64,000 bases of DNA from Rhizophagus irregularis. Taxonomy: Eukaryota > Glomeromycota > Glomeromycetes > Glomerales > Glomeraceae. This document shows, in pieces, positions 15,024-44,640 of the stretch. Position 1 is the stretch's first letter. Each line of letters opens with the position of its first letter. The position numbers and the translations under genes were made by a program. The DNA lies in NCBI RefSeq assembly GCF_026210795.1, contig NC_089438.1:2501501-2565500 (forward strand), given 5' to 3'. The notes beneath the pieces were generated by a model that had not been told where the DNA came from, ran no database searches, and worked only from the letters and a program-made list of their open reading frames with translations.

Positions 15024-15148
15024 TAGTAGCAATAAGCAAAAGCGTGGAAGCCAGGTGTGAGGATATGGGATATGATAGAGAATCCCTCAGGAAGTACCCC
15101 TTCATGACATTGTTAAAAGGCAAAAAAAATTTGAAAACATACACTTAC

Positions 15149-17181: not shown

Positions 17182-18597
17182 TAGTCAGTGGAAATGTCCT
17201 CAAAAATTAGAGAGAGATTTTTTGTACTATGATATCTCAATATAAATTATTGGGACAGTATGGCTATATGGCATATAGTATATATGTAAACTTAAGGTTG
17301 GCCAAAGTTGGTACAAATGGCTAAAATTGACAATTTTCAGATCTTAATTCTGGCCAAAATTTTCTTAATTCTGGCCGAATTTGTAATGCTGGTCTAAATT
17401 ACATTAAAATCGAAATTTTTGGGTCAAAGGTAACACCATATTTATGCAATGTAACATTTTTTCCAACAATAGTAAATATGTTCGTTCAAGGTTTGAAAAA
17501 TATTTTTAAACCTTTTAAAAGTCAAAAACTTCACTTTATTCGGTTGCATCTGGCCAAAGAAAGTAGTCAATTATATGGTTATTTTAATACAACAAACTAA
17601 TAAAAATTAAGAAAATTTATTTAACCTTATTCTTTTGCTTATTTTTTTTAAATATTCAATAAATATCTTTTATTTTAATGCTACTTTAGATACTTTTATA
17701 TATATAAAAAAATATTTTACTTATTCATATTATACTATTTGTATTTATGACTTAACAAAGTAAATAGACCTAATAGTTAATAAGAATTTTTCTATGAATA
17801 AATAATTTTTGTTTTATTTTCTTGTTAAACGAACTAAAATTAAAAATTTTAAAGTTTTTTTTAATGTTATAATAATTTACATGATTACTATAATATTAAG
17901 AATTAAGGCATTAAATGTCTAATTTAAATAAACAAATAAAAACATAATATTTAACTATTTTTGCAATTAAACCTCATTTATAACACCCAAATAGACCTAA
18001 TAATATTATTTTAATAAAAAAAATTTTTTTTATTAGCATTATAATTAAAAAATTCAACAAAATTTATAAATAACAAAAAATCTAGCTTAATAATCACCAT
18101 TCTAAGCTTAACAAAAGTTGTTCATTTCACCAAATTATACCTAAAATGAAATAATTGCTGGTTAAAAAAGCTTTTGTTAAGAGTTTTATTGAAATCAAGA
18201 AAAATTTTTTTTATTATAAAAATTGGTTTTTTGCAGTTTACACAAAATCTCCCTAAATAACTGCCTTTTTTAACTTAATAAATCTTTTTCTTCTCATAAA
18301 ATTACATATATTTGCATTATTTAAATTGTATTTTATACCCACCTTTAAGTTGTATTTTGAGGAAAACTTCATTTTTAAGACGAACTTTTTTGTAATATGT
18401 AAAGAAAAAAAAATATTACTAAAGAGGAAATGATGCCGAATATTTATAGTACACATGATGAACTATTAATTTACTTAATTTGTATAAGTATTGTATTAAA
18501 AATTTCTTTTTTAGCTACGTAATGATATATTCAATTATAGTTACACAAAATTATTTTAATTAATGATCGGCAAGAGAAATGACATTTCCACTGACTG
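17182..18597. mobile_element. Non-autonomous element with AGTCAGTGGAAATGTC ends
   Basis: The left end AGTCAGTGGAAATGTCC is mirrored on the right by GACATTTCCACTGACTG. The element 34933-36867 has the same ends and matching subterminal blocks with repeated TTCTGGCCAAAATT words, so the two form one family. About 1.4 kb and non-coding. The target duplication is unclear, and a CAGTCA terminus would fit pogo-like elements. Confidence 0.7.
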
Positions 18598-18602
18598 TTA
18601 GA

Positions 18603-18882
18603 TTTTAAAATTTAAACGCACCCCCCATGGTATAAGTCAAAAATGAAGTTTTAAACCCCTTTTATCATAGTCGGTAAGTAAAGTTGTAGAGGAGGCAAAA
18701 ATACGTATATAATGTGAGTTTATTTATAGATGTATAAGGTATAAATTGCGTTTATTCAAAAAAATCAGAAATTCACCAGTATTACGTGATAAAATGATCA
18801 GCATTTTTATTATATAAAAATTTCCAAAAAAGGGGGTGCATTCAAAACGCAGGTGCATTCAAATTTTAATCCCTTTTAGTTA
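18603..18882. mobile_element. Inverted-repeat element (ATTTAAACGCACC ends)
   Basis: TTAAAATTTAAACGCACCCC at the left is mirrored by GGTGCATTCAAATTTTAA at the right, with a second GGGGGTGCATTCAAAACGC just inside. No ORF and no certain target duplication. Confidence 0.5.
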
Positions 18883-19130
18883 TATTAATTTTTATTAATC
18901 AATTAGCAATAAAAAAATAATGCTTATCAAATACAAGCTGCGTTAAAACTTGTTTAATAAGCACTTAAATTAAATATTCTTAAAGCATTTAATAAATGGT
19001 TGGTAAATACTTGGTTTAATTTCGTGATGTAATAGTAATACAAAATATTTTTCTTCAAGAATTATGATGTAATAAATAACATCATATAACTAATTTATAC
19101 TTATGTAATAGGAGTAATGCCTATCATCTG
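18883..19130. other. No gene seen
   Basis: AT-rich spacer before the pogo-like element; nothing recognisable. Confidence 0.5.
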
Positions 19131-19186
19131 TACAGTCAACTCTCTTTATAGTCACACATTTGGGACAGTCCATATTTGGTGATTAT

Positions 19187-20189
19187 TTTACAAGTGTATT
19201 GTACGTTTAGTGGCCACTACTTTCCGCACCCTCTATTGAAGGTTATGGAGGTAGGTCGTTCATATCCTCGCCATCATTGAACCACCAGATGTCATCAAGG
19301 CCACCTTTTAACCAAGACAACTTATCCAGCACGTCCATCAATCAGGCATACCCCAGGGACCCGAAGGCCTTTGGATCAGAAGAACACCACCCTACTCGTC
19401 CTTTAATCCGTTGTATGATACTGTAATGGCTACTATTATAAACCCCTCACCACTACTACTGTCACATAGGACTTTCGTCAGATAACCTTCAAACATCTAG
19501 ACCCCTTCCATACCACTATATTAGGTAACAGGTCTCACTCAAAGGCCACTACAGCCCGCGATTACCCACCACCGATAGTACAGTTGTAATCCCCAAGTGG
19601 TATACTTTGTAGTGACCACCTGGACAGTAAGCTTGTAGGTGTTACTCAGGATCATCCCTTATGGTGGGTATAAACCACCAGGAATCACCAACCAGGGCCC
19701 ATCAGAGAAAGGAATCGAACCCAATCACCAAGCTATCTGTCTGTGCATGAACACCTTGGTTGGTCTAAGACCTAACAGAAGGTCAAACTACCACTAAGAC
19801 ATTGCACCCTCAGCTTTACCATCTAGGACGACCATCTAGCCATTACTGACCTCAAGTGGTATCCTGGAGTGACCACCCAGACAGGAAGTCCCTTCCAAGG
19901 TATAGTAGTGACCTCAAGGACAGGACTGCGCACATACCAATGGCCTCATAGGGAACGTTAGCAGGACACCATGACCCTTAATTGAAATGTGCGGCCTAAC
20001 CGTACACACTAATTCACCATGATGCAGTCCAACTACACTAATCCCTGTACCTTCACGCTATTGGTTGTAGCGTCCGCAGTAAAATTCTTTTTATTTCCAT
20101 GGTCATGGGAATCGAACCTGCGACCTCACCATACTCAGGCTTAATGAGGGTCTCAGTGACTAACCACTGAGATAGGGTAACCAACCCAT
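19187..20189 (-). mobile_element. Long SINE-like retroelement, unit M1 (full length)
   Basis: Reading the minus strand, the unit starts near GGGTTGGTTACCCTATCTCA, with a tRNA-like box A/box B pair (GGTTCGATTCC). It continues for about 1 kb without a long ORF and ends AAACGTACAATACACTTGTAAAA next to the target duplication. Its 3' half differs from the plus-strand units, so it represents a second subfamily sharing the same 5' head. Confidence 0.85.
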
Positions 20190-20204
20190 ATATTTGGTTA
20201 TTAT

Positions 20205-20871
20205 TTTACAAGTGTATTGTACGTTTAGTGGCCACTACTTTCCGCACCCTCTATTGAAGGTTATGGAGGTAGGTCGTTCGTATCCTCACCATCATTGAAC
20301 CACCAGATGTCATCAAGGCCACCTTTTAACCAAGACAACTTATCCAGCACGTCCATCAATCAGGCATACCCCAGGGACCCGAAGGCCTTTAGATCAGAAG
20401 AACACCACCCTACTCGTCCTTTAATCCGTTGCATGATACTGTAATGGCTACTATTATAAACCCCTCACCACTACTACTGTCACGGAGGACTTTCGTCAGA
20501 TAACCTTCAAACATCTAGACCCCTTCCATACCACCATATTAGGTAACAGGTCTCACTCAAAGGCCACTACAGCCCGCGATTACCCACCACCGATAGTACA
20601 GTTGTAATCCCCAAGTGGTATACTTTGTAGTGACCACCTGGACAGTAAGCTTGTAGGTGTTACCCAGGATCATCCCTTATGGTGGGTATCAACCACCAGA
20701 AATCACCAACCAGGGCCCATCAGAGAAGGGAATCGAACCCAATCACCAAGCTATCTGTCTGTGCATGAACACCTTGGGTGGTCTATGACCTAACAGAAGG
20801 TCAAACTACCACTAAGACATTGCACCCTCAGCTTTACCATCTAGGACGACCATCTAGCCATTACTGACCAT
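20205..20871 (-). mobile_element. SINE-like retroelement, unit M2 (5'-truncated)
   Basis: Same 3' sequence as M1, but the 5' end stops at GGTCAGTAATGGCTAGATGG, so the first tRNA-like module is missing. It sits between two copies of the array's target duplication. 5' truncation is the usual result of incomplete reverse transcription. Confidence 0.85.
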
Positions 20872-20886
20872 ATATTTGGTGATTAT

Positions 20887-21892
20887 TTTACAAGTGTTTT
20901 GTAAGTTTAGTGGCCACTACTTTCCGCACCCTCTATTGAAGGCTATGGAGGTAGGTCGTTCATTGCATCATCCTCACTAAGCCATGATGTAACCATCCCC
21001 GCCACCTTTTAACAGGGACAATTCAACACCACAACCGAAACGCAAGGACATATCCCAGGGACCCGAAGGCCTTCGAATCTGCTGAACACCACCCTACTCG
21101 TCCTTTAATCCGTTGCATGATACTGTAATGGCTACTATTATAACCCCTCACCACTACTACTTTCACGGAGGACTTTCGTCAGATAACCTTCAAACATCTA
21201 GACCCCTTCCATACCACCATATTAGGTAACAGGTCTCACTCAAAGGCCACTACAGCCCGCGATTACCCACCACCGATAGTACAGTTGTAATCCCCAAGTG
21301 GTATACTTTGTAGTGACCACCTGAACAGTAAGCTTGTAGGTGTTACTCAGGATCATCCCTTATGGTGGGTATCAACCACCAGGAATCACCAACCAGGGCC
21401 CATCGGAGAGGGTCGAACCAACCCAATCACCAAGCTATCTGTTCTGTGCACGAACACCGTGGTTGGTCTAAGACCTAACAGAAGGTCAAACTACCACTAA
21501 GACATTGCACCCTCAGCTTTACCATCTAGGACGACCATCTAGCCATTACTGACCCCAAGTGGTATCGTAAAGTGACCACCCGGACAGGAAGCCCCCCAAG
21601 GTATAGTAGTGGGACCTCAAGGACAGGACTGCGCACATGCCAATGGCCTCACAGGGAACGTTAGAAGGACACCATGACCCTTAGTTGAAATGTGCGGCCT
21701 AATCGTACACACTAATTCACCATGATGCAGTCCAACTACACTAATCCCTGTACCTTCACGCTATTGGTTGTAGCGTCCGCAGTAAAATTCTTTTTATTTC
21801 CGTGGTCATGGGAATCGAACCTGCGACCTCACCATACTCAGGCTTAATGAGGGTCTCAGTGACTAACCACTGAGATAGGGTGACCAACCCTT
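20887..21892 (-). mobile_element. SINE-like retroelement, unit M3 (full length)
   Basis: Starts on the minus strand at GGGTTGGTCACCCTATCTCA and ends at AAACACTTGTAAAA. It carries the first tRNA-like module with box B GGTTCGATTCC at about 21814-21824. The second module is altered to GGTTCGACCC. No ORF. Its left-hand part is more diverged than M1/M2 in the block 20960-21070. Confidence 0.85.
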
Positions 21893-21907
21893 ATATTTGG
21901 TGATTAT

Positions 21908-22373
21908 AAAGAGATGTGACTATATAAAAAATTTCTTATATTTGTATATCATAATTCCGGCCAAAAATTAACATAATTTTAGCCAGAATTATACTTAAAA
22001 CTTTATTGTATCGTAACTTCGCCAATATTAATCGTAGAGAGATGATCTTACCGCCATTCGATTCGTCTTGATGAGACGGTTCTAATGGTATAAAATACGT
22101 CGAAATCCAATCACTAGATTAATTTCCGAAATTAAAAAAAATATTAATGGTTTTTGTGTAATAACTCTGCCAATATTGATCCTAGAAAGACGATCTTACT
22201 ACCATTCGATTCGTCTCGATGAGGCGATTCCAACGAGCTATAAATCGTCTTTTTACAATCACTAGGTACTGAGAAATCTAGCAAAATGTTAAATGGCGCA
22301 GTAAACGTAAATCAAGAAATATTATAATGACGATGTTTAACATTTTGTTGAATAACTCGTCAGCCAGTGATCA
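21908..22373. other. Interior of the pogo-like element
   Basis: This stretch aligns with 51034-51644. It contains two degenerate copies of a block including ACCATTCGATTCGTCT and CGATTCCAACGAGC, plus a TTCCGGCCAAAAATTA motif. No gene. Confidence 0.8.
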
Positions 22374-22387
22374 GAAAAGGATAAAAC

Positions 22388-23366
22388 ATCAGGGTTGGTC
22401 ACCCTATCTCGGTGGTTAGTCACTGAGACCCTCATTAAGCCTGAGTATGGTGAGGTCGCAGGTTCGATTCCCATGACCACGGAAATAAAAAGAATTTTAC
22501 TGCGGACGCTACAACCAATAGCGTGAAGGTACAGGGATTAGTGTAGTTGGACTGCATCATGGTGAATTAGTGTGTACGGTTAGGCCGCACATTTCAACTA
22601 AGGGTCATGGTGTCCATCTAACGTTCCCTATGAGGCCATTGGTATGTGCGGCATCTGTCCTCGAGGTCACTACTATACCTGGGGGATTTCCTGTTCAGGT
22701 GGTCACTCCACGATACCACTTGGGGTCAGTAATGGCTAGATGGTTGCCCTAGATGGTAAAGCTGAGGGTGCAATGTCTTAGTGGTAGTTTGACCTTCTGT
22801 TAGGTGGCTTGACCATCCAGGTGTTCGTGCGCGAACAGGTAGCGTGGTTATGGGGTTCGATTCCCCACTTCTTGGGTCCTGGTTGGTGATCCCTGGTGGT
22901 TGATACCCACCATAAGGGGTGATCCTGGACAGAAGCCTGCTACTTCCTGTCTGAGTGGTCACTACAAAGTATACCACTTGGGGTAAACAACTGTACTATC
23001 GGTGCTAGGTAATCGCGGGCTGTAGTGGCCTTTGAGTGAGACTTAGTATCTAAAATGGTGGTATGGAAGGGTACTAGATGGTTGATGTTACCTGTCGAAA
23101 GTCCTCCATGAAAGTAGATGCTCTCTAAAGGTCGTTAAATAAATTGAGTATCAGTATCATGCAATGGGTATAGAATGAGTAGGCGGCGTGTACCTAGCTT
23201 CAGATCAGCCTATAATGGCCCGATGGGAGATGTCTTCTATAGTGGTGCTGTTACCTGAGGAATTAAGTACTCGGTATAATGGTTGCCCATTGAAGATGAT
23301 AGGACACAGACCCGAGATTAGTCTCATAAGAGGCAATGGGTGGTCTGGCCGTAAACATTAGCAAAA
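22388..23366 (+). mobile_element. Long SINE-like retroelement, unit U1
   Basis: Full-length plus-strand unit starting GGGTTGGTCACCCTATCTCG and ending with a GTAAACATTAGCAAAA tail at the target duplication. Box B motifs GGTTCGATTCC occur at about 22462 and 22856, each about 40-80 bases after an A-box-like word. About 980 bp. The short ORFs at 22570-22977 are by-products of the element. Confidence 0.88.
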
Positions 23367-24244
23367 GAAAAGGATAAAACATCATCTTCTTTGGCTTTCT
23401 ATTCGACAACTTATCAAGGACCGTAATCTTAATGTTGAATTGATTAAAGTCCCTGCTCATGGCGATGATATTTACAATATACAAGCGGATTATTTGGCAA
23501 AAGACGCTCATTCGTCTTTACAACCCACTACTCTACTTTCAACATTTTGTTATGCTCCATGCTTGTTGACCTTTAACTCCCTACCTATTGACGTGAATAT
23601 TCGACATTTTCTCCGCTCTATTGCAGATGCTCGTGCTCTTTTATCTTTCTGTTCACTAGCGCGTTTTACTGCTCTCGGTTCTCCTTCACTTTTTGATTGG
23701 GCTGGTATATATTTTTGCCTTTCACAAATTAAAGGTTTTGCTTCACATAGGAATGGTCGTCCTGAATTTTGGATCTTCCGCATTAAACTTCTTTTGGATA
23801 TGTTGCCTACCTTAACTACTCTTCAACAACGTAAACCTTACTTATATTCTCCTGACTGGCTCTGTCCGCAGTGTAATTCTGCTCCTGAAGATTTAAATCA
23901 TCTTTGGACTTGTCCTTATATTTTACCAGATTTAAATCCCTGTTTAACACACCGGTCTGAAGTCATTAAATTTAGAGATTCTTGTTTATCTTCTTTCTTA
24001 TCCTTGAAATCTTTGGATAATTCCTTTCATACTGAGTTCTTTGCTTTGGATTGCTGGAACTATGAAGCTCCTTCTTCATCCTGTCTTTGGCTTACTCGAG
24101 GATTGTTGCCTGCGCATTTAACGGCATTTTTGAATCAATACTTTCCTCTCTCTGTTATATACAAGATTATTTCTCCCCTTCTTAATGACTTCCAAGTCGA
24201 ATTATATGGTGAAATTTGGCTGTGTCGGAATGTTCTTTTCCATG

Positions 24245-25272
24245 TAGAGCTCCGAACGGGTCAGGTCAACCCGGGTGACCCGACGGGTTGACCCGAAAAA
24301 TTCGGGTCGGGTAGCAAATTTAATGACCCGACCTCGGGTCGGGTCAGTCACAAGTCGGGTACCTGACCCGACCCGTTGACCCGATATATTTTGGGTCAAT
24401 AAAAGACGTTTCAGCATTTTTTATATATAAAAAATGCCAACCCGTTTTTTTTGACCCGAATCTGACGTTTGTTCATAAAAATAATAATAATAAACGTCTT
24501 TTTTTAATGAAAAAACGCCGAACCCGACGTTATTTCATTAAATAAATCAAAAAAAACGTTTTTTAATGAAAAAACGCTGAAACCGACGTTATTTCATTAA
24601 ATGAATGAAAAAAAAATGTTTTTTAATGAAAAAACGCCGAACCCGACGTTATTTCATTAAATAAATAAAAAAAAACGTTTTTTTAATGAAAAACGCCGAA
24701 TCCGACGTTATTTCATTAAATGAATAAAAAAAAACGTTTTTTTAATGAAAAACGCCGAATCCGACGTTATTTCATTAAATGAATAAAAAAAAACGTTTTT
24801 TAAATGAAAAAACGCCGAACCTGACGTTATTTCATTAAATGAATAAAAAAAAACGTTTTTTTAATGAAAAAACGTATAACCCGACGTTATTTCATTAAAT
24901 AAATCAAAAAAAAACATTTTTCATTAAATGAATCAAAAAAACGTTTTTTTTTTTAAACATCAACGGGTTGGGTCGGGTACCCGACCCGACCCGATATAAA
25001 AAACGTTTTGGCGTAATCTAATATGTAAGAAAAATGCCGAAACGTTCTTTTCCACAAAATAATTGTAAAAAAAACGTTTAGAGTTTTTTCTTATAATTTG
25101 ATATATAAAAAACGCCGAAACGTTTTTTTTGATCCAAAATATCGGGTCAACGGGTCGGGTCGGGTACCCGAACTGACCCATGATATTCGGGTCGGGTCAT
25201 CAAATTCGTGACTCCCCTCGGGTCGGGTTAAGTCAATGATCCACCCTTACCCGGAATCTGCCTTCGACTCTA
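24245..25272. mobile_element. hAT-like element with GGGTC subterminal repeats, TSD TTTCCATG
   Basis: Ends are TAGAGCTCCGAACGGGTC and, inverted, TAGAGTCGAA. Perfect TTTCCATG copies lie at 24237-24244 and 25273-25280. The homologous uninterrupted LINE sequence is at 29555-29575. The subterminal zones are inverted GGGTCGGGTCA oligomers; the middle is a 60-bp tandem repeat. No transposase. Confidence 0.93.
24470..24955. repeat. 60-bp tandem repeat, about eight units
   Basis: Units contain AACGCCGAACCCGACGTT then ATTTCATTAAATAAAT and an AAACGTTTTTT run. They differ by a few substitutions and one- or two-base indels. They form the core of the hAT-like element. Comparable blocks lie inside the elements at 32184 and 53225. 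Confidence 0.9.
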
Positions 25273-25780
25273 TTTCCATGCTTGGGAGGAGTCGCAGGGT
25301 ATCTCGGCTGCTTCCAAATTACGTGGCCCGTCTACAAATTCCTTCCCTAATACTACTTCTCCACAACAACACAACTCTTCTTTGGCGTCAGTTTCTCAGG
25401 ATTCCTGGATTTCTTGGATATCCTCTTCTATAATTCGGGGTGGATCTTGGATCTCGCACTTGGATTTTCTGCGCCGCTTAACAGTTCAACCTCTTAGGAT
25501 CTCTTTCTGGTAACGGACTGGATTTTTGGATGTTGGATAGTTGACTCACACTGGCCTTCGGGTAAAGTTGGGGTATGCGATTCTGTAATAGTTCAGTTTT
25601 TCTTTGCTTTAATTTTATTTTAGTTTAGATTTCTTTACTTGTATGAGTCGTGAAGCTACTCTTTTTATTTTTTATTAGTTTATTTTCTTATTTTTGTAAT
25701 ATTGTTCGATTACTTTTCGAAATGCAAAGTATAAATAAAAGATAAAGTCATAAGACTGTTTGCACAGAAAAAAATAAAAC

Positions 25781-26317
25781 ACAGAACAGGTAGCATGGCT
25801 ATGGGGTTCGATTCCCTACTCCTTGGGTCCTGGTTGGTGATCCCTGGTGGTTGATACCCACCATAAGGGGTGATCCTGGACAGATGCCTGCTACTTCCTG
25901 TCTGAGTGGTCACTACAAAGTATACCACTTGGGGTAAACAACTGTACTATCGGTGCTAGATAATCGCGGGCTGTAGTGGCCTTTGAATGAGACTTAGTAC
26001 CTAAAATGGTAGTATGGAAGGGTACTAGATGGTTGATGTTACCTGTCGAAAGTCCTCCATGAAAGTAGATGCTCTCTAAAGGTCGTTAAATAAATTGAGT
26101 ATCAGTATCATGCAATGGGTATAGGATGAGTAGGCGGCGTGTACCTAGCTTCAGATCAGCCTAAAATGGCCCAATGGGGGATGTCTTCTATAGTGGTGCT
26201 GTTACCTGAGGAATTAAGTACTCGGTATAATGGTTGCCCATTGAAGATGATAGGACACAGACCCGAGATTAGTCTCATAAGAGGCAATGGGTAGTCTGGC
26301 CGTAAACACTTGCAAAA
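25781..26317 (+). mobile_element. SINE-like retroelement, 5'-truncated unit
   Basis: Begins inside the second tRNA-like module (ACAGAACAGGTAGCATGG) and continues to the normal 3' end CGTAAACACTTGCAAAA, between two copies of the array target duplication. Confidence 0.88.
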
Positions 26318-26331
26318 GAAAAGGATAAAAC

Positions 26332-27312
26332 TAGGGTTGGTCACCCTATCTCGGTGGTTAGTCACTGAGACCCTCATTAAGCCTGAGTATGGTGAGGTCG
26401 CAGGTTCGATTCCTATGACCACGGAAATAAAAAGAATTTTACTGCAGACGCTACAACTAATAGCGTGAAGGTACAGGGATTAGTGTAGTTGGACTGCATC
26501 ATGGTGAATTAGTGTGTACGGTTAGGCCGCACATTTTAACTAAGGGTCATGGTGTCCTTCTAACGTTCCCTATGAGGCCATTGGCATGTGCGCAGTCCTG
26601 TCCTTGAGGTCACTACTATACTTTGGGGGGACTTCCTGTCCGGGTGGTCACTTTACGATACCACTTGGGGTCAGTAATGGCTAGATGGTCGTCCTAGATG
26701 GTAAAGCTGAGGGTGCAATGTCTTAGTGGTAGTTAGACCTTCTGTTAGGTCTTAGACCAACCAAGGTGTTCGTGCACAGAACAGGTAGCATGGCTATAGG
26801 GTTCGATTCCCTACTCCTTGGGTCCTGGTTGGTGATCCCTGGTGGTTGATACCCACCATAAGGGGTGATCCTGGACAGATGCCTGCTACTTCCTGTCTGA
26901 GTGGTCACTACAAAAGTATACCACTTGAGGTAAACAACTGTACTATCGGTGCTAGGTAATCGTGGGCTGTAGTGGCCTTTGAGTGAGACTTAGTACCTAA
27001 AATGGTGGTATGGAAGGGTACTAGATGGTTGATGTTACCTGTCGAAAGTCCTCTATGAAAGTAGATGCTCTCTAAAGGTTGTTAAATAAATTGAGTATCA
27101 GTATCATGCAATGGGTATAGGATGAGTAAGCGGCGTGTACCTAGCTTCAGATCAGCCTAAATGGCCCGATGGGGGATGTCTTCTATAGTGGTGCTGTTAC
27201 CTGAGGAATTAAGTACTCGGTTTAATGGTTGCCCATTGAAGATGATAGGACACAGACCCGAGATTAGTCTCATAAGAGGCAATGGGTGGTCTGGCCATAA
27301 ACACTTGCAAAA
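26332..27312 (+). mobile_element. Long SINE-like retroelement, unit U2 (reference copy)
   Basis: About 980 bp from TAGGGTTGGTCACC to ACACTTGCAAAA. Two internal RNA polymerase III-type promoters are visible: box A TATCTCGGTGGTTAG 26347-26361 with box B GGTTCGATTCC 26403-26413, and TGTCTTAGTGGTAGT 26719-26733 with GGTTCGATTCC 26800-26810. The first module can be drawn as a tRNA with a TGGTCA/TGACCA acceptor stem and a CTCA-TTAAGCC-TGAG anticodon arm, which would suggest Leu(AAG). That folding is by eye. No long ORF, so it must borrow LINE enzymes. Confidence 0.88.
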
Positions 27313-27326
27313 GAAAAGGATAAAAC

Positions 27327-29794
27327 TGTTAGCCTTGCTTTTCTTGAAACTTCCTTTCTCTATTCAAAATGCCTTTTATCGTTTTCTCTCTTCTCATGTG
27401 GCTTCTTGGCAAAAGATCTTCATTCACCCAGATTTCCATGAGTTTGCCAACTATGCCATCTCTTATCTTCAAGGGTTTCTGGGCGCTAAAAGTTGCCCGA
27501 CTACTATTAATCTAGAGCCGTGGTCACAAGTGGTTTCCTTGCGGATGCATACCTTGTTTAATTCTCTTTTGTTCTCCTCGAGGCTTCATATCATGTGGTC
27601 CTCCTCCTTAATTAGGCCTCCGAGGCGTGATCTACAACCTGCTCTGCCACTCCGATCTATTCTACCACATTCTGTTTTTCAAACAAGTTGGAAACTTTGG
27701 AAGAACCTGAATATTTTTGTGCTCGCCCAATTGGCTTCTCCTTGTGGACGTTATCTTATGAATTGGTCTGACCTTTATTACCTTGGTATCGTTGGCCATA
27801 AAGGACGGATCCCTACTTGGTTTAATTTTATTAAAAATAATTTTATTTCTTCTTCTTTTTCTTCTTTATTTTTATCTATGTATTTTATTAATTCTTCTTT
27901 TACATTAGCTTCACCTTGTTTATTAGATGATACTGTTAAAGATTATCATTTTTACCCTCAATGGGCTATTAATTTTAACCTCGCTACCCAAACTTTGTCT
28001 GTTGGTCGTGTATGTATCACTTACAAGAAACAAGACTCCGCTATCATGTCACATTGGCTTCCTGTATCTGCTTCTGCCGATGAACGATCTTATAATCCTT
28101 GCCCTAGTTGTTCTTATAACGTACCTGCTTTGTCTAAGAAAGCCGCGATTAAACAATGTTGTAATAGCGAGAAATGTTTCTTCAATGTTTCTTTATCTGA
28201 AACTGTTGGTTATCCCTCGAAGAATGCCAAAGTTTTTGCAGCTTATCTTCCTATAACTTTGTCTACATCCTGGAGTTATGCTACTTCTTTGGCCCTTACA
28301 TATCTGCAGAGTGTTTCGCCTGCTTCTTTTGGTAATCCCCTTTCTTCGATATCGAGGAATGATATGGATGTTAATACCCTTGTTCCAATCTTACCTTCTT
28401 CAGTATATACGTCATACACTGATGGTTCATTCCGCCGCGCATCAGATTCTACTCCTCCTTCTATGTCATCTGCTTGGTTAGCTCTTGATGATGACGGATT
28501 TATATTGGAATCCTTTTCTATAAGCCTTCCTTCGTGTTCACCCTCAGCTCTATGTTCAGAAATTTATGCTGTGGTATTAGGACTTCAAGCTCTTCCTTTT
28601 GGTTCTTCCATTATAATCAATACTGACTGCAGTCAGCTAATATCTCTTTAGAATAGTTTTGTGGATGTTCCGTTTTCGCCAAAACTGCTTCGACAACCTA
28701 ATCATCTTCTTTGGCTTTCTATCCGTCATATTGTTAGAGATCTTGATTTGAAAGTCAAATTGAACAAAGTCCCAGCTCACGAAAATGATGCACATAACAT
28801 TCAAGTAGATTCTTTGGCTAAAGACGCTCACTCATTTTCGCAGCCCACCTTTTCGCCAATGGCTGTTTATCAAGTTCCATGTTTACTTAAATTTGATTCC
28901 TTACCTATTGACATGAATATTCGTCATTTTCTTCGCTCTATCACGGATGCTCGTGCCCTTTTATCCTTTTGTTCCATGGCATGCTTTACTGCGCTTGGCT
29001 CTCCTGCGCTCTTCGATTGGGCTGGTATATATTTTTGCCTCTCACAAATTAAAGGTTTCGTCTCACATAAGAATGGTCGTCCTGAATTTTGGATTTTCCG
29101 TATTAAACTCCTCTTGGATATGCTGCCTACTTTAACTACTTTACAACAATGCAAACCTTATTTATATTCTCCTGATTAGCTTTGCCCACAATGTAATTCC
29201 GCTCCTGAAGATTTGAACCATCTCTGGACTTGTCCTTATATCCTTCCCAAACTTAATCCGTGTTTAACACATCGAACTGAAGTTATTAAATTTAGGGATA
29301 CTTGTATAACATCATTTCTATCTTTGAAATCCTTGGATCTTTCCTTTCAAGAAGAATTCTCTACTTTGGATTGTTGGGATTTTGAAACTCCTTCTTCGTC
29401 CTGTCTTTGGCTTACTCGAGGACTGCTTCCTGCTCATTTAACTTTTTTTTTGAAACAATACTTTCCTCTTTCAGTCGTTTACAAAACTATTTCTCCGCTT
29501 CTCAATGATTTCCAAGTTGAATTATATGGTGAAATTTGGCTTTGTCAGAATGTTCTTTTCCACGCTTGGGAGGAATCGCAGGGTATTACTGCTACTTCAA
29601 AATTACGTGGCCCTTCTATTACTTCAACCTCTACTGTTTCCCCTCATTGTCACAACTCCTCTCTGGCGACAGTTTCTCAGGATTCCTGGATTTCTTGGAT
29701 ATCCTCTTCTATAATTCGGGGTGGATCATGGATCTCACACTTGGATTTTCTGCGCCGCTTAACAGTTCAACCTCTTAGGATTTCTTTCTGGTAA
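27327..29794 (+). pseudogene. LINE ORF2 C-terminal half with RNase H and CCHC
   Basis: One reading frame runs the whole length, broken only by two TAG codons (28649-28651 and 29177-29179). It contains a Cys-rich linker (NPCPSCSYN...QCCNSEKC). An RNase H domain follows with acidic residues in YTDGSF (codon 28421), SEIYA (28559), NTDCSQ (28625) and VDSLAK (28808). Next come a C-x2-C-x8-H-x3-C motif after 29180 and the conserved LINE tail ending LRISFW. RNase H removes the RNA template during target-primed reverse transcription. The apparent start at 27161 is false: its first 55 residues are translated SINE sequence. Confidence 0.88.
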
Positions 29795-30048
29795 CGGTTT
29801 GGATTTTTGGATGTTGGATAGTTGACTCACACTGGCCTTCGGGTAAAGTTGGGGTATGCGATTCTGTAATAGTTTAGTTTTTCTTTACTTAAAAATTATT
29901 TTAGTTTAGATTTCTTTACTTGTATGAGTCGTGAAGCTACTCTTTTTATTTTTTATTAGTTTATTTTCTTATTTTTGTAATATTGTTCGATTATTTCCTC
30001 AAAGTTAAAATTTAAATAAAAGATAAAGTCACAAGACTGTTTACACAA
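27327..30048 (+). mobile_element. 5'-truncated LINE copy L2
   Basis: About 2.7 kb, lacking endonuclease and reverse transcriptase. It ends in a 3' UTR with TAAAGTTGGGGTATGCGATT and AGACTGTTTACACAAG before the target duplication. The 5' junction abuts the target duplication directly. Confidence 0.9.
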
Positions 30049-30062
30049 GAAAAGGATAAAAC

Positions 30063-31043
30063 TAGAGGGTTGGTCACCCTATCTCAGTGGTTAGTCACTG
30101 AGACCCTCATTAAGCCTGAGTATGGTGAGGTCGCAGGTTCGATTTCCATGACCACAGAAATAAAAAGAATTTTACTGCGGACGCTATAACCAATAGCGTG
30201 AAGGTACAGGGATTAGTGTAGTTGGACTGCCTCATGGTGAATTAGTGTGTACGGTTAGGCCGCACATTTCAACTAAGGGTTATGGTGTCCTTCTAACGTT
30301 CCCTATGAGGCCATTGGCATGTGCGCAGTCCTGTCCTTGAGGTCACTACTATACCTTGGGGGACTTCCTGTCCGGGTGGTCACTCTACGATACCGCTTGG
30401 GGTCAGTAATGGCTAGATGGTCGTCCTAGATGGTAAAACTGAGGGTGCAATGTCTTAGTGGTAGTTAGACCTTCTGTTAGGTTTTAGACCAACCAAGGTG
30501 TTCGTGCACAGAACAGGTAGCATGGCTATGGGGTTCGATTCCTACTCCTTGGGTCCTGGTTGGTGATCCCTGGTGGTTGATACCTACCATAAAGGGTGAT
30601 CCTGGACAGATGCCTGCTACTTCCTGTCCGAGTGGTCACTACAAAGTATACCACTTGGGGTAAACAACTGTACTATCGGTGCTAGGTAATCGCACGCTGT
30701 AGTGGCCTTTGAGTGAGACTTAGTACCTAAAATGGTGGTATGGAAGGGTACTAGATGGTTGATGTTACCTGTCGAAAGTCCTCCATGAAAGTAGATGCTC
30801 TCTAAAGGTCGTTAAATAAATTGAGTATCAGTATCATGCAATGGGTATAGGATGAGTAGGAGGCGTGTACCTAGCTTCAGATCAGCCTAAAATGGCCCAA
30901 TGGGGGATGTCTTCTATAGTGGTGCTGTTACCTGAAGAATTAAGTACTCGGTATAATGGTTGCCCATTGAAGATGATAGGACATAGACCCGAGATTAGTC
31001 TCATAAGAGGCAATGGGTGGTCTGGCCGTAAATACTTGCAAAA
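30063..31043 (+). mobile_element. Long SINE-like retroelement, unit U3
   Basis: Full-length unit with the same 5' head (GGGTTGGTCACCCTATCTCA), a first box B altered by one base downstream (GGTTCGATTTC), a second module with a one-base deletion (GGTTCGATTCCTAC) and the standard 3' end. Flanked by the array target duplication on both sides. Confidence 0.88.
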
Positions 31044-31056
31044 GAAAAGGATAAAC

Positions 31057-32045
31057 CTAGGGTTGGTCACCCTATCTCAGTGGTTAGTCACTGAGACCCT
31101 CATTAAGCCTGAGTATGGTGAGGTCGCAGGTTCGATTTTCATGACCACGGAAATAAAAAGAATTTTACTGCGGACGCTACAACCAATAGCGTGAAGGTAC
31201 AGGGATTAGTGTAGTTGGACTGCATCATGGTGAATTAGTGTGTACGGTCAGGCCGCACATTTCAACTAAGGGCGGTCATGGTGTCCTTCTAACGTTCCCT
31301 TTGTATGTGCCATTGATGTGCGCAGTCCTGTCCTTAAGGTCACTAGTACTATACCTTGGGGAAACTTCCTGTCTGGGTGGTCACTCTACGATACCGCTTG
31401 GGGTCAGTAATGGCTAGATGGTCGTCCTAGATGGTAAAGCTGAGGGTGCAATGTCTTAGTGGTAGTTAGACCTTCTGTTAGGTCTTAGACCAACCAAGGT
31501 GTTCATGCACAGAACAGGTAGCATGGCTATAGGGTTCGATTCCCTACTCCTTGGGTCCTGGTTGGTGATCTTTGGTGGTTGATACCTACCATAAGGGGTG
31601 ATCCTAGACAGATGCCTGCTACTTCCTGTCTGAGTGGTCATTACAAAGTATACCACTTGGGGTAAACAACTGTAATATCGGTGCTAGGTAATCGCGGGCT
31701 GTAGTGGCCTTTGAGTGAGTCTTAGTATCTAAAATGGTGGTATGGAAGGGTATTAGATAGTTGATGTTACCTGTCAAAAGTCCTCCATGAAAGTAGATGC
31801 TCTCTAAAGGTCGTTAAATAAATTGAGTATCAGTATCATGCAATGGGTATAAGATGAGTAGACAGCGTGTACCTAGCTTCAGATCAGCCTAAAATGGCCC
31901 GATGGGGGATGTCTTCTATAGTGGTGCTGTTACCTGAGGAATTAAGTACTCGGTATAATAGTTGCCCATTGAAGATGATAGGACACAGACCCGAGATTAG
32001 TCTCATAAGAGGCAATGGGTGGTCTGGCCGTAAACACTTGCAAAG
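31057..32045 (+). mobile_element. Long SINE-like retroelement, unit U4
   Basis: Last unit of the array. Full length, with a small tandem duplication (GGGCGGTCATGG) near 31270 and a first box B changed to GGTTCGATTTTC. It is followed by the final GAAAAGGATAAAAC and then the pogo-like element sequence ACCACCATTCGATTCG. Confidence 0.88.
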
Positions 32046-36753: not shown

Positions 36754-37171
36754 TAAATATAGTATATTGGAATTTAGCATTTAACTATAAAATAACATAA
36801 TTTGCTCAATGTTACACAAAATAATTTTAATATGAAAATGATCTGCATGTGACATTTCCAGTGACTGATATTTATTTTAGCCATTTATTCTTGAATACCT
36901 AAATAATATACTGTAAAAGTTTCAAGTTTTGTCTAAAGATCTGTGACTTTGCTTAAGGCTTTAAAGTCAGATATGATTGGTATATATATAGCATATATAT
37001 TAATTATTGAAAATTAGACATAAAATCTAACTTTGGAAACACACTTTATTTTGCCAGGACCCCAGAAAATGCTTATATATGTAAGGTACCAAGGTGCTTC
37101 ATCGGTAATGTTTTAGAAGTCAGGATCTACGTGAAATCCTTATTTTCCGTAAATAGTAAAGATTCACGTGA

Positions 37172-37876
37172 ATCCTTCTCCACCTCAATGGATCCTTAGA
37201 ATTAAAAAAGTTTAAAGAATCCCTAAGGATAGGAAAGAATCCTTAGGGATATTTATTTAATTTTTATTAATAGATTATTTATTGATTTTTATTAAAATCT
37301 ATTTATTAATTTATATATTTAATGTGTATTTATTTATCTTTAATATTATTGTATATATTATGTATTTCTCTAGTTAATAAAAATAAAACAATAATTTAAA
37401 TATAAAATATAAAAACAACTAATAAATAAAGTTAAAAAAAAATAATTATGTAAGTTTCACAATGAAACTTATTGCTTTTTCTTAATTCTTCTGTTGATAT
37501 CCAGACAACCTAAAAAAAATTAAACATCATTTAACGCTTTTATTAAAAAGGAAGCAATTGAAGTTTCGCAATGAAACTTACCTATTATTAAATTATTTTC
37601 TCTCTAATCGATACCCAGATCATGGTATAATGTCAATAGCGTCATTTGATTTTGAAGCAGGAGGGTTATCGATCCTAATTGCTTGCATGACTTTTACAAT
37701 ATCTGGGTGATTTCCAATTGAAAAAGTATCAATCTGTTCATGGATTCACTAATAGCTGATCTATAGCAAGCGATAGTATTCCCCTATTGAAACCTACTCG
37801 TCTAAAAAAAAGAAAAAGATTGAAACGTTAATAAACGTTTTATTAAAATAAATAATTTAAAGAAGCCTTCACTTAC
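37172..37876 (-). other. Possible 3' part of the micro-exon array
   Basis: Candidate donors on the minus strand (GTAAGTTTCATTGCGAAAC near 37563-37582) suggest further exons, but reading frames are interrupted. The outer part (37172-37440) is AT-rich with GGATCCTTAGAATT-type repeats belonging to the insert's terminus. Confidence 0.35.
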
Positions 37877-39262
37877 CAAGTTTCCACACGTCTAAAGAAA
37901 TCAAAAGAAATGGCCATCTAAAAAGAAAAAAATCAAACATTAGTAGATATTTTGCTACAGTAAAATAAAAATTTAAATAATTCCCCACCAGTTTCTAACG
38001 TGTTAATGACCCATTCTATCTAAAGAAAAGAAAAAATTGAATTTTTTTGTTTTCAATACACTTGTTGAAACAACTTATAGTGCGTGTCTAATACTGAAAT
38101 TAATCCGAAAGATGTCATCTTCGATATCTTTTTTCCTTTGTCATTATTCTGTAAGTATTTTACGTCCAGAGATATTTAAAAAAGAAACACCTAAAAAAAA
38201 ATGAAAATGAGCAGTTAGTAATGCTCGTTAATATAAAAAAATCTGAAATAACTTCTTTTTTTGTTACTTACCAGTATCCAAGTTGAAAAAACACCTAAAA
38301 AAGAAAAAAAAATGAATATTTAGTATTTGTCAAAATAAAAAAAAAATTGAAACAAATTTTTTATGAAACTTACTGGTATCCCACATCAAAAAATTCCTAA
38401 AAAAGAGAAAAAATGAACAATTAGTAATGTTTGTTAAAATAAACAAAAAGAAAAAAAATAATTTTTTTTACACACTGGTATTCCGCGTCTAGAAAGGCTC
38501 AAAACCACCTAAAAAAAAAGAAAATGAACAGTTAGTGATGTTCGTTAAAATAAATAAAAAGAAAAAAAATAATTTTTTTTCTTACTTGCCAGTATTTCAC
38601 ATCCAAAAAGGCTCAAAATTACCTAAAAAAAAGAAAAACGAACAGTTAGTAATGTTTGTTAATATAAAAAAAATGAAATTTTTTTTGTTTACTTGTAAAA
38701 GTCCTATTCGAATATCCAAACCCAAAAAAAAAAAATAGAATAGTTAATAATATTCATTAATATGAAAAAATGAATAATATTTTTTTACTTGCCAAAATCC
38801 ATGTTCAAGTACCTGAAAAAAAGGACGTCTAAAAAAAAGGAAATAAAATGAAACGTTAGTTAAGGCAACATACCATTAAAATAAATAAAAAATTAAAGTG
38901 TAAGCTTACCGAAATGCCACATGCAAAGGAAATCTGAAAGAACCTAAAAAGAAAAGACCTGACCGTCTAAAAAAAGAAAAATGAAAATGAAACATTAGTT
39001 AATGTTTCGTTAAAATAAAAAAAATTGTAAAAAAAAACTTGCCGCAAGAAAATCTGAAAGAACCGTCTAAAAAAAGAAACAACTGTTAGAAACTATTCAT
39101 TAAAAGAAAGGAAAAAAAAGTTTAAAACTTACCAGAATATCACCTTCAAAGTAATCCAAAAAAACCGTCTAGAAAAAAAAAACAAAAAAATGAATTAGAA
39201 CCTGCTCATTAAAAGAAATAATTAAATATATAAAAAAAACCTTACCAAAATCTGACTGCTGA
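37877..39262 (-). CDS. Micro-exon array gene (minus strand, uncertain)
   Basis: Reading the minus strand, at least ten short exons lie every 80-120 bp, between T-tract TAG acceptors and GTAAGT or GCAAGT donors. In order: 39246-39262 (17 nt), 39133-39168 (36), 39043-39066 (24), 38910-38966 (57), 38793-38828 (36, stop unless the inner AG is used), 38590-38622 (33), 38476-38508 (33), 38374-38396 (23), 38272-38294 (23) and 37877-37917 (41). The 36, 24, 57, 33 and 33 nt exons are exact codon multiples and open in phase 0: TVFLDYFEGDIL, TVLSDFLA, TVRSFLFRFFQISFACGIS, VILSLFGCEIL, VVLSLSRRGIP. Introns share TTAACTAATGTTTCATTTTC. Start and stop codons are not resolved and more exons may continue to about 37440. 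The product is unknown; many exons are hydrophobic. Confidence 0.45.
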
Positions 39263-39867
39263 CTAAAAAAATAGCGAAACATTATTTAATGTTTCATTAT
39301 GGATTTTGTAGAGAGAGGGAAAAGAATAGGGTAAAGAAATAGAACGAGAAAGGGAAAAGGTGAGAGAGGGAATAAAGACGAAAGTTTTGTAAAAAAAAAA
39401 TTCCATATCAAGATATCAGATGGCCGATCATTAAACATTAAGATTATAACACGTGATACACGTAATTTTTTAATTTTAAAATAAAAATAAAATTTTTTAA
39501 AGATTTAGATATAAGGAATATATAAGGATTTTTTATATGGAATCTTTAAAGAATCTTTAAGGATCTGTAAACTTATAGATTCCTTAAGGGTATTTTACAA
39601 ATCAGTATGGATTTTTAAAGAATCCATAAAATTACAGATCCTTAAGGATTCTAAAGTAATTTATGGAATCTTTAAGAATCTATATTCCAAAAAATTTACT
39701 GATGTTAGCCAACATAGTAAAGTTTTATAATGTAAGAATTTTATAATGCTTAATTTTAAGAAAATTTTATACTATGTAAGATAATTAAATTGCATATTTT
39801 TGGTATTATTTTAAGACTGTTGCTAACTTTCTCTCCGAGTAAAGATCACTTAGGGTGATTTCACCCA

Positions 39868-40005: not shown

Positions 40006-40950
40006 AAAATAGTCGGTAATTCACTCATATAAAAAATTTTATTATCTGTTATTATTATATGATATTTAATAAAATGACCTATACATCTCAAAAAAATTAT
40101 TAAACATTTGGACATTGTGGGGCATAATGACCAGTTTGATGGCATTTTTTACAATATCTTTCTCTTGTTTTACCAGCTTGAGTTGCTACAACTCTCTCTT
40201 CATTTTCATTATTAGTGATATTAGTTATATTTCGCATATGCCTTGCTTTCTTTTTTTGGGTTCACCACATGATCTGTACCTATTAGATTATCTACCTTTA
40301 TGTTGTACTCTTAATGGATTACCAATATGCATAGAAACTATATTTTCCTGATGTTCGAATAATTCTACTTTTGTATTTTCAATAAAACATTTTACTTGAT
40401 TGACAAATTCATCAACTTTATCAGTTCGAATAGCAAATCAAGAGCTTTTTTAGCATATCCCATACCAAATCTATACTTTTGTTTAGGACCCTGCAGTTGT
40501 ACAATATTAGGAGTTTGCCTAAAATTTGCGAGATGTTGAAATGATAATTGAGGTATGGGCTGTTCTAACTCACTCAACTTATTTTCTCCAATATGATATA
40601 TTGGCATTACATTTTTCTCATGTTCATTATATTTACTATTATTATACCATCGTTGAGAAACAAGTGATATATGAAACTGTGCAGTAGTTGAATAAGACAT
40701 AACCCGAAAAAAGTGCCTGCATATAATTCCTCTATTAATAAGCCAAAGACAAGTACATAAATGTGAACTATCATCAAGAAGAATAACATATTGTGGTTCT
40801 GATTTTTGTCCACGATGTCTAGTTACTTTCCATACTTGCTGAATACTATTGTGTGATATATTTTCAATTAATGAAGAAAATAGAGATTGAGGTTGGTCAT
40901 AATCATCTTCTCTAGCCATTTTTTGTTGATAAAAATCATTTCCAATCTAA

Positions 40951-42044
40951 AAAAAAAAAATATTTTTTATTAGTAGCTCTAAGCACAGGTTTTTACTATG
41001 ATCGCTAAGCATTGTTGATATCTAACCTTAAAAATTATATAAAAATAAGCAAATCAATCTTCTAACCTAATTAAATTTTTATTATAACACATATAATTTA
41101 TAAAATATATTTATTAATTAATATATTTTATTAAATCCAATTTTAAATATGTTGTGAAGCTATAAAACTAAACATAATATACAAGTAGATTAATAATATT
41201 CAATTAATAAAGTTAATAAACAGTAAGAGAAAAATTCGAAATTAATACTATTACAAAAAATGTAAATTTCTCCATAAGTATTATACTTATACCTATAAAA
41301 ATTAATATGTAGGTATTTTTGACCTTGCTGAACAATTTTCAATTAATTTAGAAAGTCGATTTCATTTGACTGAAGTAGTGTAATTACGCTCTGAAGTTAT
41401 AAACGAAAAAGTAGTTATTACCGTTAAAAAAAATATGCTTTTCTATATAAATATCATACTTAGCCTTATGAAAATTAAAATACAAGTAGATTTAACTTGC
41501 TGAATAACCTTACTTAAGCATAAAAGATAATTTGATATAACTAAAGTGGTAAGTAGTGAAATTATATTTTAAAGTAAAACATATTTACAGTAATTTTATT
41601 TAACAAAATAAACATGTATAATATAGTAATTTTATATTAAAAATAATGCACTGAGTTTAATAAAAATTAAAAAGATACTATTGAAAGATAATCAATAAAA
41701 CATTGAAAAAAAAAACTGAAATTCCATCAAAAAAAATTTTTGTTTATGTATTTATATAAAATCGTGAAATGTAGTACAAAATTAACACTTACCGTTAGTG
41801 AAAATAAATAAAAATTAATTATAAATTCAATATATAATAATTTAAAAAGTTCTATAAATATGAAAAATAAGCAACTAGAAACTCTTAGTATTTTAAAATA
41901 ATACCAAAAATATGCAATTTAATTATCTTACATAGTATAAAATTTTCTTAAAATTAAGCATTATAAAATTCTTACATCATAAAATTTTTCTATGTTGGCT
42001 AAGCACCTTGGTACCTTACATATATAAGCATTTTCTGGGGTCCT
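40951..42044 (-). mobile_element. Second copy of the ATTTTGCC-element, inside the MULE intron
   Basis: The reversed sequence aligns with 37056-37101, 39713-39829, 45004-45236, 45828-45872 and 46117-46940, in that order. It therefore supplies the uninterrupted version of the host element. Its right end keeps AGGACCCCAGAAAATGC (reversed, ending 42044); the other end lacks the terminal repeat and merges with the polypyrimidine tract of the intron acceptor. Confidence 0.8.
41250..41580 (-). repeat. Two units of the ~170-bp repeat family
   Basis: Contains TTTCAATTAATTTAGAAAGT, then GTGTAATTACGCTCTGAAGT and a second, weaker unit. The inverted counterpart is 46170-46640. They show that the repeat is an ancestral part of the composite hAT-like element. 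Confidence 0.75.
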
Positions 42045-42229
42045 GCCATAATTATAATTTGGGATGTCATAATTCATTCGGTTTATATATAATTTACTAT
42101 GTAAAGTGCCAAAATAATTTGGGATGCCATAATTGAATTTGGGATTTTACTTATAATTACAGCAGTTTAAAATAATTTGGGTGGCATGTATAATTAATAC
42201 TAACATTAAGTTCTCACTTTAATTAACTA
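42045..42229. other. Short ATAATTTGGGATG repeats in the MULE intron
   Basis: Four imperfect copies of ATAATTTGGGATGYCATAAT lie at 42053, 42113, 42135 and 42170, some inverted. They may be the remains of another small element at the intron's 5' side. No coding function. Confidence 0.5.
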
Positions 42230-44640
42230 TTAGTAACTTACGTCCAAAAGTGGCAACCAATCTTTAATCAATATTGTATCATAGTATAATGATTGAGCCA
42301 TTTGATCATGTTGTTTTTGAAGAATTTGTGGTATCAAATACTCTCGCAAAATCTTATCAAGTTCTGGAAAATATTCATCCATTATAGATGGTATTCCTTT
42401 TGTTGGAATTTCATTTTTACATTCACTTAGTATTGCTTTTTTTGATTGTTGATCAAATGTTTTTTGAACTTCTTTAACAACATCAGTTAAACATGAAGAT
42501 CTATTCAATTTATCTTTAATTATTTTGTTCATTACTTCTACCTGTTGTGTGCTTTGAATCCCTGCAGTAAAATTTTGGTTGATAGCGTAACTTGCCCAAC
42601 TACGTTTACAAGGATATAAAACTCTTGTAAGATATTGTTCACAAGCTGGAAATTTGTCGGTAAGTGCTTTCCATTCTATTTCAAACTTTTTATGGCATAA
42701 AAAATTACGCATTGCTAAAAATTTAGCACGAAAAAGTTCAAATTGATCGTGTAATTTTCCTTTAAGTTTTTTTCTTAAATTCAAATCTATATGAAAAATA
42801 CAATGAAAATGCTGTGTTACTGAATAATTTTTTTTTACAGCCGTTATTAAGGCCGGATCAGCATCAAAATATAGGGCTGTTGGTGTTATGTCACATGAAT
42901 TTTTTAATTCTTGTAAAAGCCACGAAAAAGTAACTTCAGTCTCATCTTCTAAAACAGCTGCTGCTACTATTAAACTTTTGAAGTTATTATCAACCACTAT
43001 AATTAGCATCAACAACATATCAAATTGATTAGTTTTTGATGTTGTATCAATAATTACAATATCATGATATCTTTCATAAGCATTTACTTGGTCAGGAGAC
43101 ATCCAAAATAATGAATTTAACCTTCTTTCATCAAGGTCAAAACGCGGCTTTATAATCCATCTTGAATCAATTTCTTTCTTCAAATATAAATCGGTAAGCA
43201 TTTGACATGCATCATTTTTATTAGGTTTTGCTTGTTTTTTAAATTGCTGAATAGCGTTACTTAAATCCTTTTTGTTAATTACTTTATCTGGAAACAAGGC
43301 CACCAGGAGATTGTATTGAGTTGATATGTCCATTTTGCCTTAAATCATTCAAAATTTAACTTTTTCAATCATTTTGTCAGTTAATTTTCGATATTTTGGT
43401 GCTATTTCACCAACAAGTGGGTTCATATCATGATTGTGTTTACCAATTATACTGTTAATCTGAACACCATTTGAAGATTTAGGAAATGCAAGATTAATAT
43501 GCCAAGAGCATCCAATCATTTCAGAATCTCTATCCCTCCTATTTTCCACTAAGATAGTCTTTTGAGTTTCATGTGTTTGGACATGTGAGCATTCATACGT
43601 TCTGCGTCTAGTAATTGTTTTATCATTTGGATCTGGTATACGCCTTTTTTTACGAAGGCAGAATCCTTGTTGTTTTGCATATTTGTCAAGGTATGACTCA
43701 GCAAGTTCCCATGAACTAAATTCTTTTCCTTGATTTAATTCTAATCCGTTTTCTTCTTTACTCTCATACTCACTCTCATATTCACTATCGTCATATTCTT
43801 CTTCATGATGATAATTTTTCAAATGATTTCTTACGGTATTTATACTTTCATTTCCTGTTTGATTTTCGTTATCTGTTCATAATTTTTAAGGAATAGATTA
43901 AAAGAATCATATGAGAAATCAAGTATCAGATTGGGAAAATCAAATAATAAGAACAGAATAACAGGTTAGAATTTTTGATCGTAGTACTCACTATTTTCTT
44001 CCTGATGATCATCCAAATAATTTCCTATAATATCGTTTCCTAGTTGAATTTCGTTATCTGTTCATGATTTTGAGAAACGGATCAGAAAATCATGTAAGAA
44101 ATTAAGTATTGAACAATTCAATAACAGGTTAGATTCGTTGATCATAATACTCACTATCTTTCTGACGGTCTTTCATATGATCTTTTAAAAAATCTACTAA
44201 ACTTTCATTTCCTATTTGGATTTCATTAGCTATCTCATCATTTTTAAGAAACAAGTCAGAAAAATCATATGAGAAATTAAATAGCGGGTTAAAAGTATCA
44301 ACTGAAGAATTATAGTGAGAGTTCGATAAAAGATCAGAATCATTATATGAAGAGTCATAATAAGAGTTAAATAGTGGGTCAGAACTATCATACAAATTAT
44401 TATAAGAAAAGTTTGTATTTAAAACTATATTTTCCATTGTAAGTGACTTTAAAGTTCTGTATTGCAGTTTTATGTAAGTGATATCAGCAAATAGAAACAA
44501 AAGTGATACTAATTTTATTAATTTTATTCGGAAACTAATTCTTTAGAGAAGTGAAACAAGATAAAAGTTTTTTTTAACGAAATCAGAGTGAGAATTTTTG
44601 AAATAGTTCGTAAATACAATAACGATAACAATGCGGTATA

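Follow-up and report, generated by a model that had tools for sequence, protein, structure and literature searches.

The window analyzed here is a 64,000-nt stretch of the Rhizophagus irregularis genome. On the minus strand of 37877–39262 it contains a series of short exon-like segments, which the initial annotation compared in architecture with the schistosome micro-exon genes for variable secreted proteins, suggesting a possible host-targeted protein family. This raises the question whether the segments are real, what kind of element carries them, and whether a protein or something else would be made from them.

Exon-like segments in the window

Eleven exon-like segments following T-tract acceptors were identified on the minus strand, which confirms the array as annotated. 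They are listed below in minus-strand order. The first nine are based on the window sequence and the copy comparison, the last two on the window sequence, and the main run on intron lengths, profile matches, column conservation and pairing tests.

39246–39262, minus: exon-like segment, 17 nt
39133–39168, minus: exon-like segment, 36 nt
39043–39066, minus: exon-like segment, 24 nt, GC donor
38910–38966, minus: exon-like segment, 57 nt
38793–38828, minus: exon-like segment, 36 nt, GC donor, in-phase TGA
38590–38622, minus: exon-like segment, 33 nt, GC donor
38476–38508, minus: exon-like segment, 33 nt, donor GTGTGT
38374–38396, minus: exon-like segment, 23 nt
38272–38294, minus: exon-like segment, 23 nt
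37989–38019, minus: exon-like segment, 31 nt, weak donor GTGGGG
37877–37917, minus: exon-like segment, 41 nt
38191–39245, minus: main run of about ten exon-intron units

A GTAAGT or GCAAGT donor had been described for every segment. The motif G[T/C]AAG is present in 9 of the 11; the second 33-nt segment and the 31-nt segment are followed by the non-standard donors GTGTGT and GTGGGG, respectively. Two further units are damaged, one with both sites broken (between a 36-nt and a 33-nt segment) and one lacking a donor (between a 23-nt and the 31-nt segment). Six of the eleven lengths are divisible by three. The five multiples of three named in the annotation (36, 24, 57, 33 and 33 nt) are all present and open in phase 0, whereas the sixth, the 36-nt segment at 38793–38828, was omitted there and has an in-phase TGA.

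The intact introns of the main run are 66–81 nt long, and the YTAAY branch site often lies within a palindrome of the type GAACATTACTAACTGTTC. Using a joint intron pattern (G[TC]AAG..YTAAY..pyrimidine tract-AG, within 135 nt), eight complete introns were found on the minus strand of 37480–39320 and none on the plus strand, compared to a mean of 0.13 and a maximum of 2 in 500 dinucleotide shuffles. The exon-like segments are therefore real and not a product of chance. The remaining 61 kb of the window contain four introns of this pattern (one plus, three minus). For the actin loci, which served as a small yardstick, the pattern candidates included ones with GTAAGT and GTGAGT donors and 74–138 nt.

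The transposon carrying the array

The similarity of three copies (L001, L003 and L005) to the window stops at 37097–37100 and 39704–39706. From these limits, the flanks and the comparison of 5′ ends, the following features were derived.

37100–39704, minus: whole 2,605-bp TIR transposon, non-autonomous, with Plavaka-type ends
39705–39706: left 2-bp target site duplication (AA on the minus strand)
37098–37099: right 2-bp target site duplication (AA on the minus strand)
39545–39704, minus: 5′ terminal/subterminal repeat region, starting with CATCAGTAAATTTTTTGG (TIR pattern; 77% identity to L019 and L020 over 160 bp)
39290–39465, minus: CACGTG palindrome and then a CT-rich tract, a putative promoter-like region
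37624–37780, minus: 157-bp fragment of a putative DIRS-like retrotransposon that now forms an exon-like block of the element (86–87% identity to L015–L017)

The 5′ end of the window element is CATCAG and its 3′ end CGATG, which is one base off the TGATG found in L001 and L005. Among the 14 elements with both ends read, identical 2-bp flanks were found in 11 (the window, L001, L003, L005, L009, L010, L020, L021, L022, L023 and L024) and non-matching flanks in L012, L013 and L019, a count that leaves aside loci with one or no end read and L006, which adjoins another element. Allowing at most one mismatch, the TIR pattern matched 88 times in the 147-Mb genome compared to 0 for the reversed control. 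A DNA search of the genome with the array returned at least 71 matching pieces, the window's own included, with 40 of 329 candidates scored; at least three other long copies, 95–97% identical to the array query, are among the matches listed. Copies are located, for instance, at C6:2406505, C9:3889455 and C2:1023053. The terminal repeats, the target site duplication and the dispersed copies thus bear out the earlier description of a mobile insert. A plasmid search gave no match.

Upstream of the array, 9 of the 15 5′ ends compared contain an exact CACGTG, and 13 contain a 60-nt stretch whose pyrimidine content is ≥0.88, from which we infer a promoter region. The captured 157-bp piece is flanked in the element by an acceptor and a donor. 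Its source ORF in L015–L017, which adjoins a reverse-transcriptase-like frame in L015, presumably encodes a DIRS-type tyrosine recombinase; a Pfam search of this ORF gave no match.

Relationship to Plavaka transposons

The TIR of the array element is shared by two 6.2-kb elements, L019 and L020, with 77% identity over the first 160 bp. The L019 ORF matches the Plavaka family PF18759 (E = 1.2e-18), and a genome-wide Plavaka search (123 matches scored) gave matches at both loci (1.5e-20 and 1.0e-19). Both are devoid of the array and contain no complete intron. No transposase match was found in the array element itself. The available part of a report on PlavakaB in Agaricomycotina describes CATCA..TGATG termini and target site duplications of 2 or 3 bp (PMC12730594). 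Because its ends are common to the Plavaka-encoding L019 and L020 and fit the published PlavakaB, the array element is, as judged from its sequence, a non-autonomous relative of Plavaka. According to the accessible part of another report, Plavaka is prevalent in several R. irregularis strains and is among the superfamilies upregulated in colonised tissue (PMC11075540).

Two other candidates for the mover were considered. A MULE transposase ORF (PF10551) and flanking ORFs directly adjoin the element on its outside (40392–43822, minus); they were rejected since these positions are beyond the ends of the element. A 175-aa ORF beside the MULE ORF, which resembles a SWIM-type end, had no Pfam match. 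In L013, a 7-kb array element, pogo-like ORFs with a DDE_1 match are located at 2058–3812, possibly as a nested insertion. Pogo elements duplicate TA, a sequence present in no more than 3 of the 11 matching duplications, for which reason the pogo-like transposase is not favoured.

Distribution of the array in the genome

A profile of the exon-intron unit gave 182 matches in 21 of 27 sequences (the window and 26 loci) with 2 to 13 matches per sequence, where the 12 matches of the window include two from a relic at 15 kb and the L006 entry spans two elements. Complete introns numbered 1–9 per copy on the array strand and 0–1 on the opposite strand in the 13 array elements counted. The palindrome pattern was matched 80 times. 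Of these matches, 54 (19 of 38 clusters) have a TIR match within 6 kb, compared to 0.7% expected if the two were independent; some of the other 26 fall in array copies with unrecognised ends. A single-gene origin of the unit was sought in seven outlying loci and rejected: all seven have at least one unit match (E ≤ 1) and six at least two, some of them weak.

Several further observations were made in the same sequences. The relic of the exon-intron unit in the window (15100–15460, minus) has two profile matches and no recognised TIR. The G+C content of 18001–32000 is 0.33–0.46 compared to about 0.23–0.31 in the rest of the window (2-kb steps). In L035, an exon-like block with a short open frame, presumably resembling a fungal kinase, follows the array (722–880). 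A second dispersed repeat, L039–L041 (95.6–95.8% alike), by eye has similar small exons and palindromic branch sites; the micro-exon-like segments lie at 1900–3400 (L039), 1130–2640 (L040) and 1800–3070 (L041), and the palindromes are of a different sequence.

Conservation of the splice signals

The acceptor G, donor +1 G and donor +5 G rank first to third of 15 G columns (mean 0.88 vs. 0.62, exact p = 1/455) across 70 units with less than 85% identity, with the exon −1 G column set aside. For 30 units below 75% identity, the corresponding ranking gave p = 1/560. Since this profile had been cut at the splice sites, a second one was cut in the middle of the intron. It gave 208 matches, and the splice-site G columns were again first at both thresholds, with values of 0.88, 0.86 and 0.81 (73 units below 85%) and 0.94, 0.88 and 0.81 (31 units below 75%). 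Donor position +2 is T in 51, C in 18 and A in one of the 70 units, and the TAA of both YTAAY motifs hardly varies. The conservation of the motifs may be overstated by these profiles, because both were seeded with hand-cut units of the window and weak units are lost from the search. The better conservation of the splice-critical positions in two differently cut profiles agrees with the annotated intron-like nature of the units.

The arms of the branch-site palindrome pair better within a unit than after swaps between units (5.90 vs. 5.46 of 8, sd 0.12, reached in 0 of 300 swaps), as determined for 42 non-redundant contexts from both strands of 30 sequences, some of which are not array introns. 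Covariation per column was found at four of the eight palindrome pairs (p < 0.001) in a weak test, in which two shifted control pairs reach p = 0.000 as well and relatedness is uncontrolled.

In the four closest copies, varying sites amount to 25/282 in exons, 26/619 in introns, 1/54 in donors, 0/27 in acceptors and 3/90 in branch sites. Five copies compared to the window differ at 93/1322 exon, 163/2916 intron, 14/259 donor, 3/121 acceptor and 11/429 branch-site positions. In the distant copies L005 and L006, the donors (5/54 and 8/49) are as variable as the introns (61/607 and 63/549), so that each of these copies taken singly looks unconstrained.

Coding potential of the exons

An excess of codon-multiple exon lengths, which the annotation had predicted for the genome-wide copies, was formally obtained. 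Among non-redundant intact units, the exon length is divisible by three in 20 of 35 below 85% identity (p = 0.003), 11 of 20 below 80% (p = 0.04) and 8 of 13 below 75% (p = 0.035), where only units with both sites intact are counted (35 of 81 below 85%) and the p-values ignore the descent of units from one another. The intron part has no such excess (13/35, 9/20 and 6/13, respectively). Shared ancestry of the 33- and 36-nt units may explain the result. In a wider set, 61 of 102 unique segments are divisible by three; this set includes unrelated stretches, because the window entry spans the 15-kb relic and the L006 entry two elements. Stops in phase 0 were found in 32 of these 102 segments, some of them outside the array, compared to about 50 in shuffled exons.

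Near-identical copies, including the window and its close relatives, differ inside the exons by frame-breaking lengths. At 38793–38828, the phase set by the adjoining segments gives a TGA in the window as well as in four of the five compared copies; in the remaining copy, L002, this exon has lost 1 nt and the phase is shifted. No purifying signal was found in the annotated phase 0: 40 distinct changes comprise 31 non-synonymous (N) and 9 synonymous (S) ones, an N fraction of 0.78 compared to 0.68 in simulations (P of as few N = 0.953). In phase 1, which is closed by stops, the number of N changes is below expectation (15 N, 19 S, P = 0.001). A start frame common to the subfamilies was not found among 15 aligned 5′ ends, five of which have no ATG frame of at least 20 aa; one upstream ATG frame with a hydrophobic stretch begins alike in the window, L001, L003 and L005.

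Given the frame-breaking lengths, the in-phase stop, the missing purifying signal in phase 0 and the missing shared start, these comparisons show the exons to be under no apparent present coding constraint. An ancestral unit that encoded protein, or a protein-coding master copy elsewhere, is possible. On the same grounds, the secreted, host-targeted micro-exon protein family of the initial annotation is not supported and was rejected in the form proposed.

A probable transposon-borne splicing array and its alternatives

A transposon with a built-in splicing array appears more likely than a gene for variable secreted proteins, because the splice signals look preserved and the exons look non-coding. 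The favoured reading, to which we assign a probability of roughly 55%, is that of a transposon-borne, probably spliceable, non-coding intron array moved by a Plavaka-type (CMC/EnSpm-like) transposase. The transposase would act in trans from elsewhere in the genome, as the shared ends suggest, and the array of about ten exon-intron units would have grown by tandem duplication of an ancestral unit with subsequent drift. Transcription would start in the CT-rich tract and cross the array along the minus strand; removal of the introns would leave short, variable, non-coding RNAs. The lineage that stayed mobile would have kept its donors, branch sites and acceptors while the exon bodies drifted.

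As to a role, the array may disguise RNA crossing the element as an ordinary spliced transcript and thereby limit read-through and silencing. This idea draws by analogy on Cryptococcus, for which the available part of a report describes that spliceosomes stalled on transposon introns recruit RNAi (PMC6232588). A bolder version is considered improbable. In it, a class of fungal transposons would have evolved a dedicated splicing array of tandem mini-introns with about one quarter GC donors and covarying branch-site palindromes, and a single mobile element would yield combinatorial spliced RNAs and, in a master copy, perhaps short peptides; the similar intron plan of the second dispersed repeat (L039–L041) would then point to a general strategy in this genome. 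Against the favoured reading, several units of the window have broken donors or acceptors, and neither the excess of lengths divisible by three nor the fewer N changes in phase 1 is predicted by a non-coding array.

The alternative that deserves most weight, possible but in our view doubtful, is a passive minisatellite, in which a captured exon-intron pair was duplicated in tandem and its splice-like motifs were inherited without being used, so that the array would have no function. It fits the units being homologous tandem copies, the variable number of unit matches between loci and the similar rates of change in exons, introns and donors of the five copies. In the same five copies, however, branch sites and acceptors change less. 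The passive reading is also opposed by splice-critical G columns being the best conserved G columns in two differently cut profiles, by T or C at donor +2 in 69 of 70 units, and by palindromes pairing better within units.

A micro-exon protein gene, with symmetric exons spliced into variable and perhaps secreted proteins either now or in a master copy, is regarded as clearly unlikely. The exon lengths divisible by three, the reduced number of phase-0 stops in the partly impure segment set and the hydrophobic upstream frame begun in the window and three close copies speak for it; they are opposed by frame-breaking lengths between near copies together with the in-phase TGA, by an N fraction in phase 0 no lower than simulated and by the absence of a start frame across the subfamilies. 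Phase 1, with its fewer N changes, is closed by stops. Least probable, with very little credence given to it, is a role at the DNA level, where palindromes every ~110 bp would bind a dimeric transposase or accessory protein and the splice motifs would be incidental. Subterminal repeats of CACTA elements are described as having such a role, and the palindromes recur in divergent copies with better pairing within than between units. Yet the branch motif has an asymmetric TAA whose conservation equals that of the palindrome arms, the conserved donors and acceptors fall outside the palindrome, and the Plavaka-encoding L019 and L020 have no array.

If the introns of this probable splicing array are spliced, the element would be a transposon selected for splicing and not for protein, and its closely spaced, naturally occurring mini-introns would allow a direct comparison of intron recognition, GC donors and branch-site hairpins. 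Such arrays could also be mistaken for effector genes in mycorrhizal genomes.

Comparison with known systems

Among the titles and abstract openings covered for R. irregularis microexons, Plavaka in Rhizophagus and transposon intron arrays, none describes such an array. Schistosome micro-exon genes, which in the available part of the report consist mostly of short (≤36 bp) symmetric exons (PMC8293314), are similar in their runs of short exons, many of which are divisible by three. The likeness drawn in the initial annotation concerns these short exons, of which six of eleven in the window and 20 of 35 non-redundant intact units, not independent of one another, are symmetric; it does not extend to an open frame across the exons, which is interrupted by the TGA and frame breaks. 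The array differs from these genes in that no conserved coding frame was found and that it sits in a non-autonomous transposon.

The SP7-like effectors of arbuscular mycorrhizal fungi, as far as covered by the available text (PMC11333574), are likewise repeat-containing genes of fungi of a similar kind. In SP7, hydrophilic repeats are part of the coding sequence and a conserved intron precedes the first of them, whereas every unit of the array contains an intron and no protein frame is retained.

The fungal PlavakaB elements of the CMCT clade, in the available part of their description (PMC12730594), agree with the array element in the CATCA-type termini and 2-bp target site duplications, to which the same-ended 6.2-kb PF18759 elements can be added. 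The array element differs from them by its internal intron array and by the absence of a transposase match in the search performed.

Introners share transposon-borne splice signals with the array element, and in many families also TIRs and target site duplications, according to the part of the report available (PMC9860276). Their share of GC donors ranges from 0 to 50% across families and is often high, as in the array units. An introner, however, is itself a single intron, whereas the tandem exon-intron units of the array element, up to about a dozen in number, lie well within its ends.
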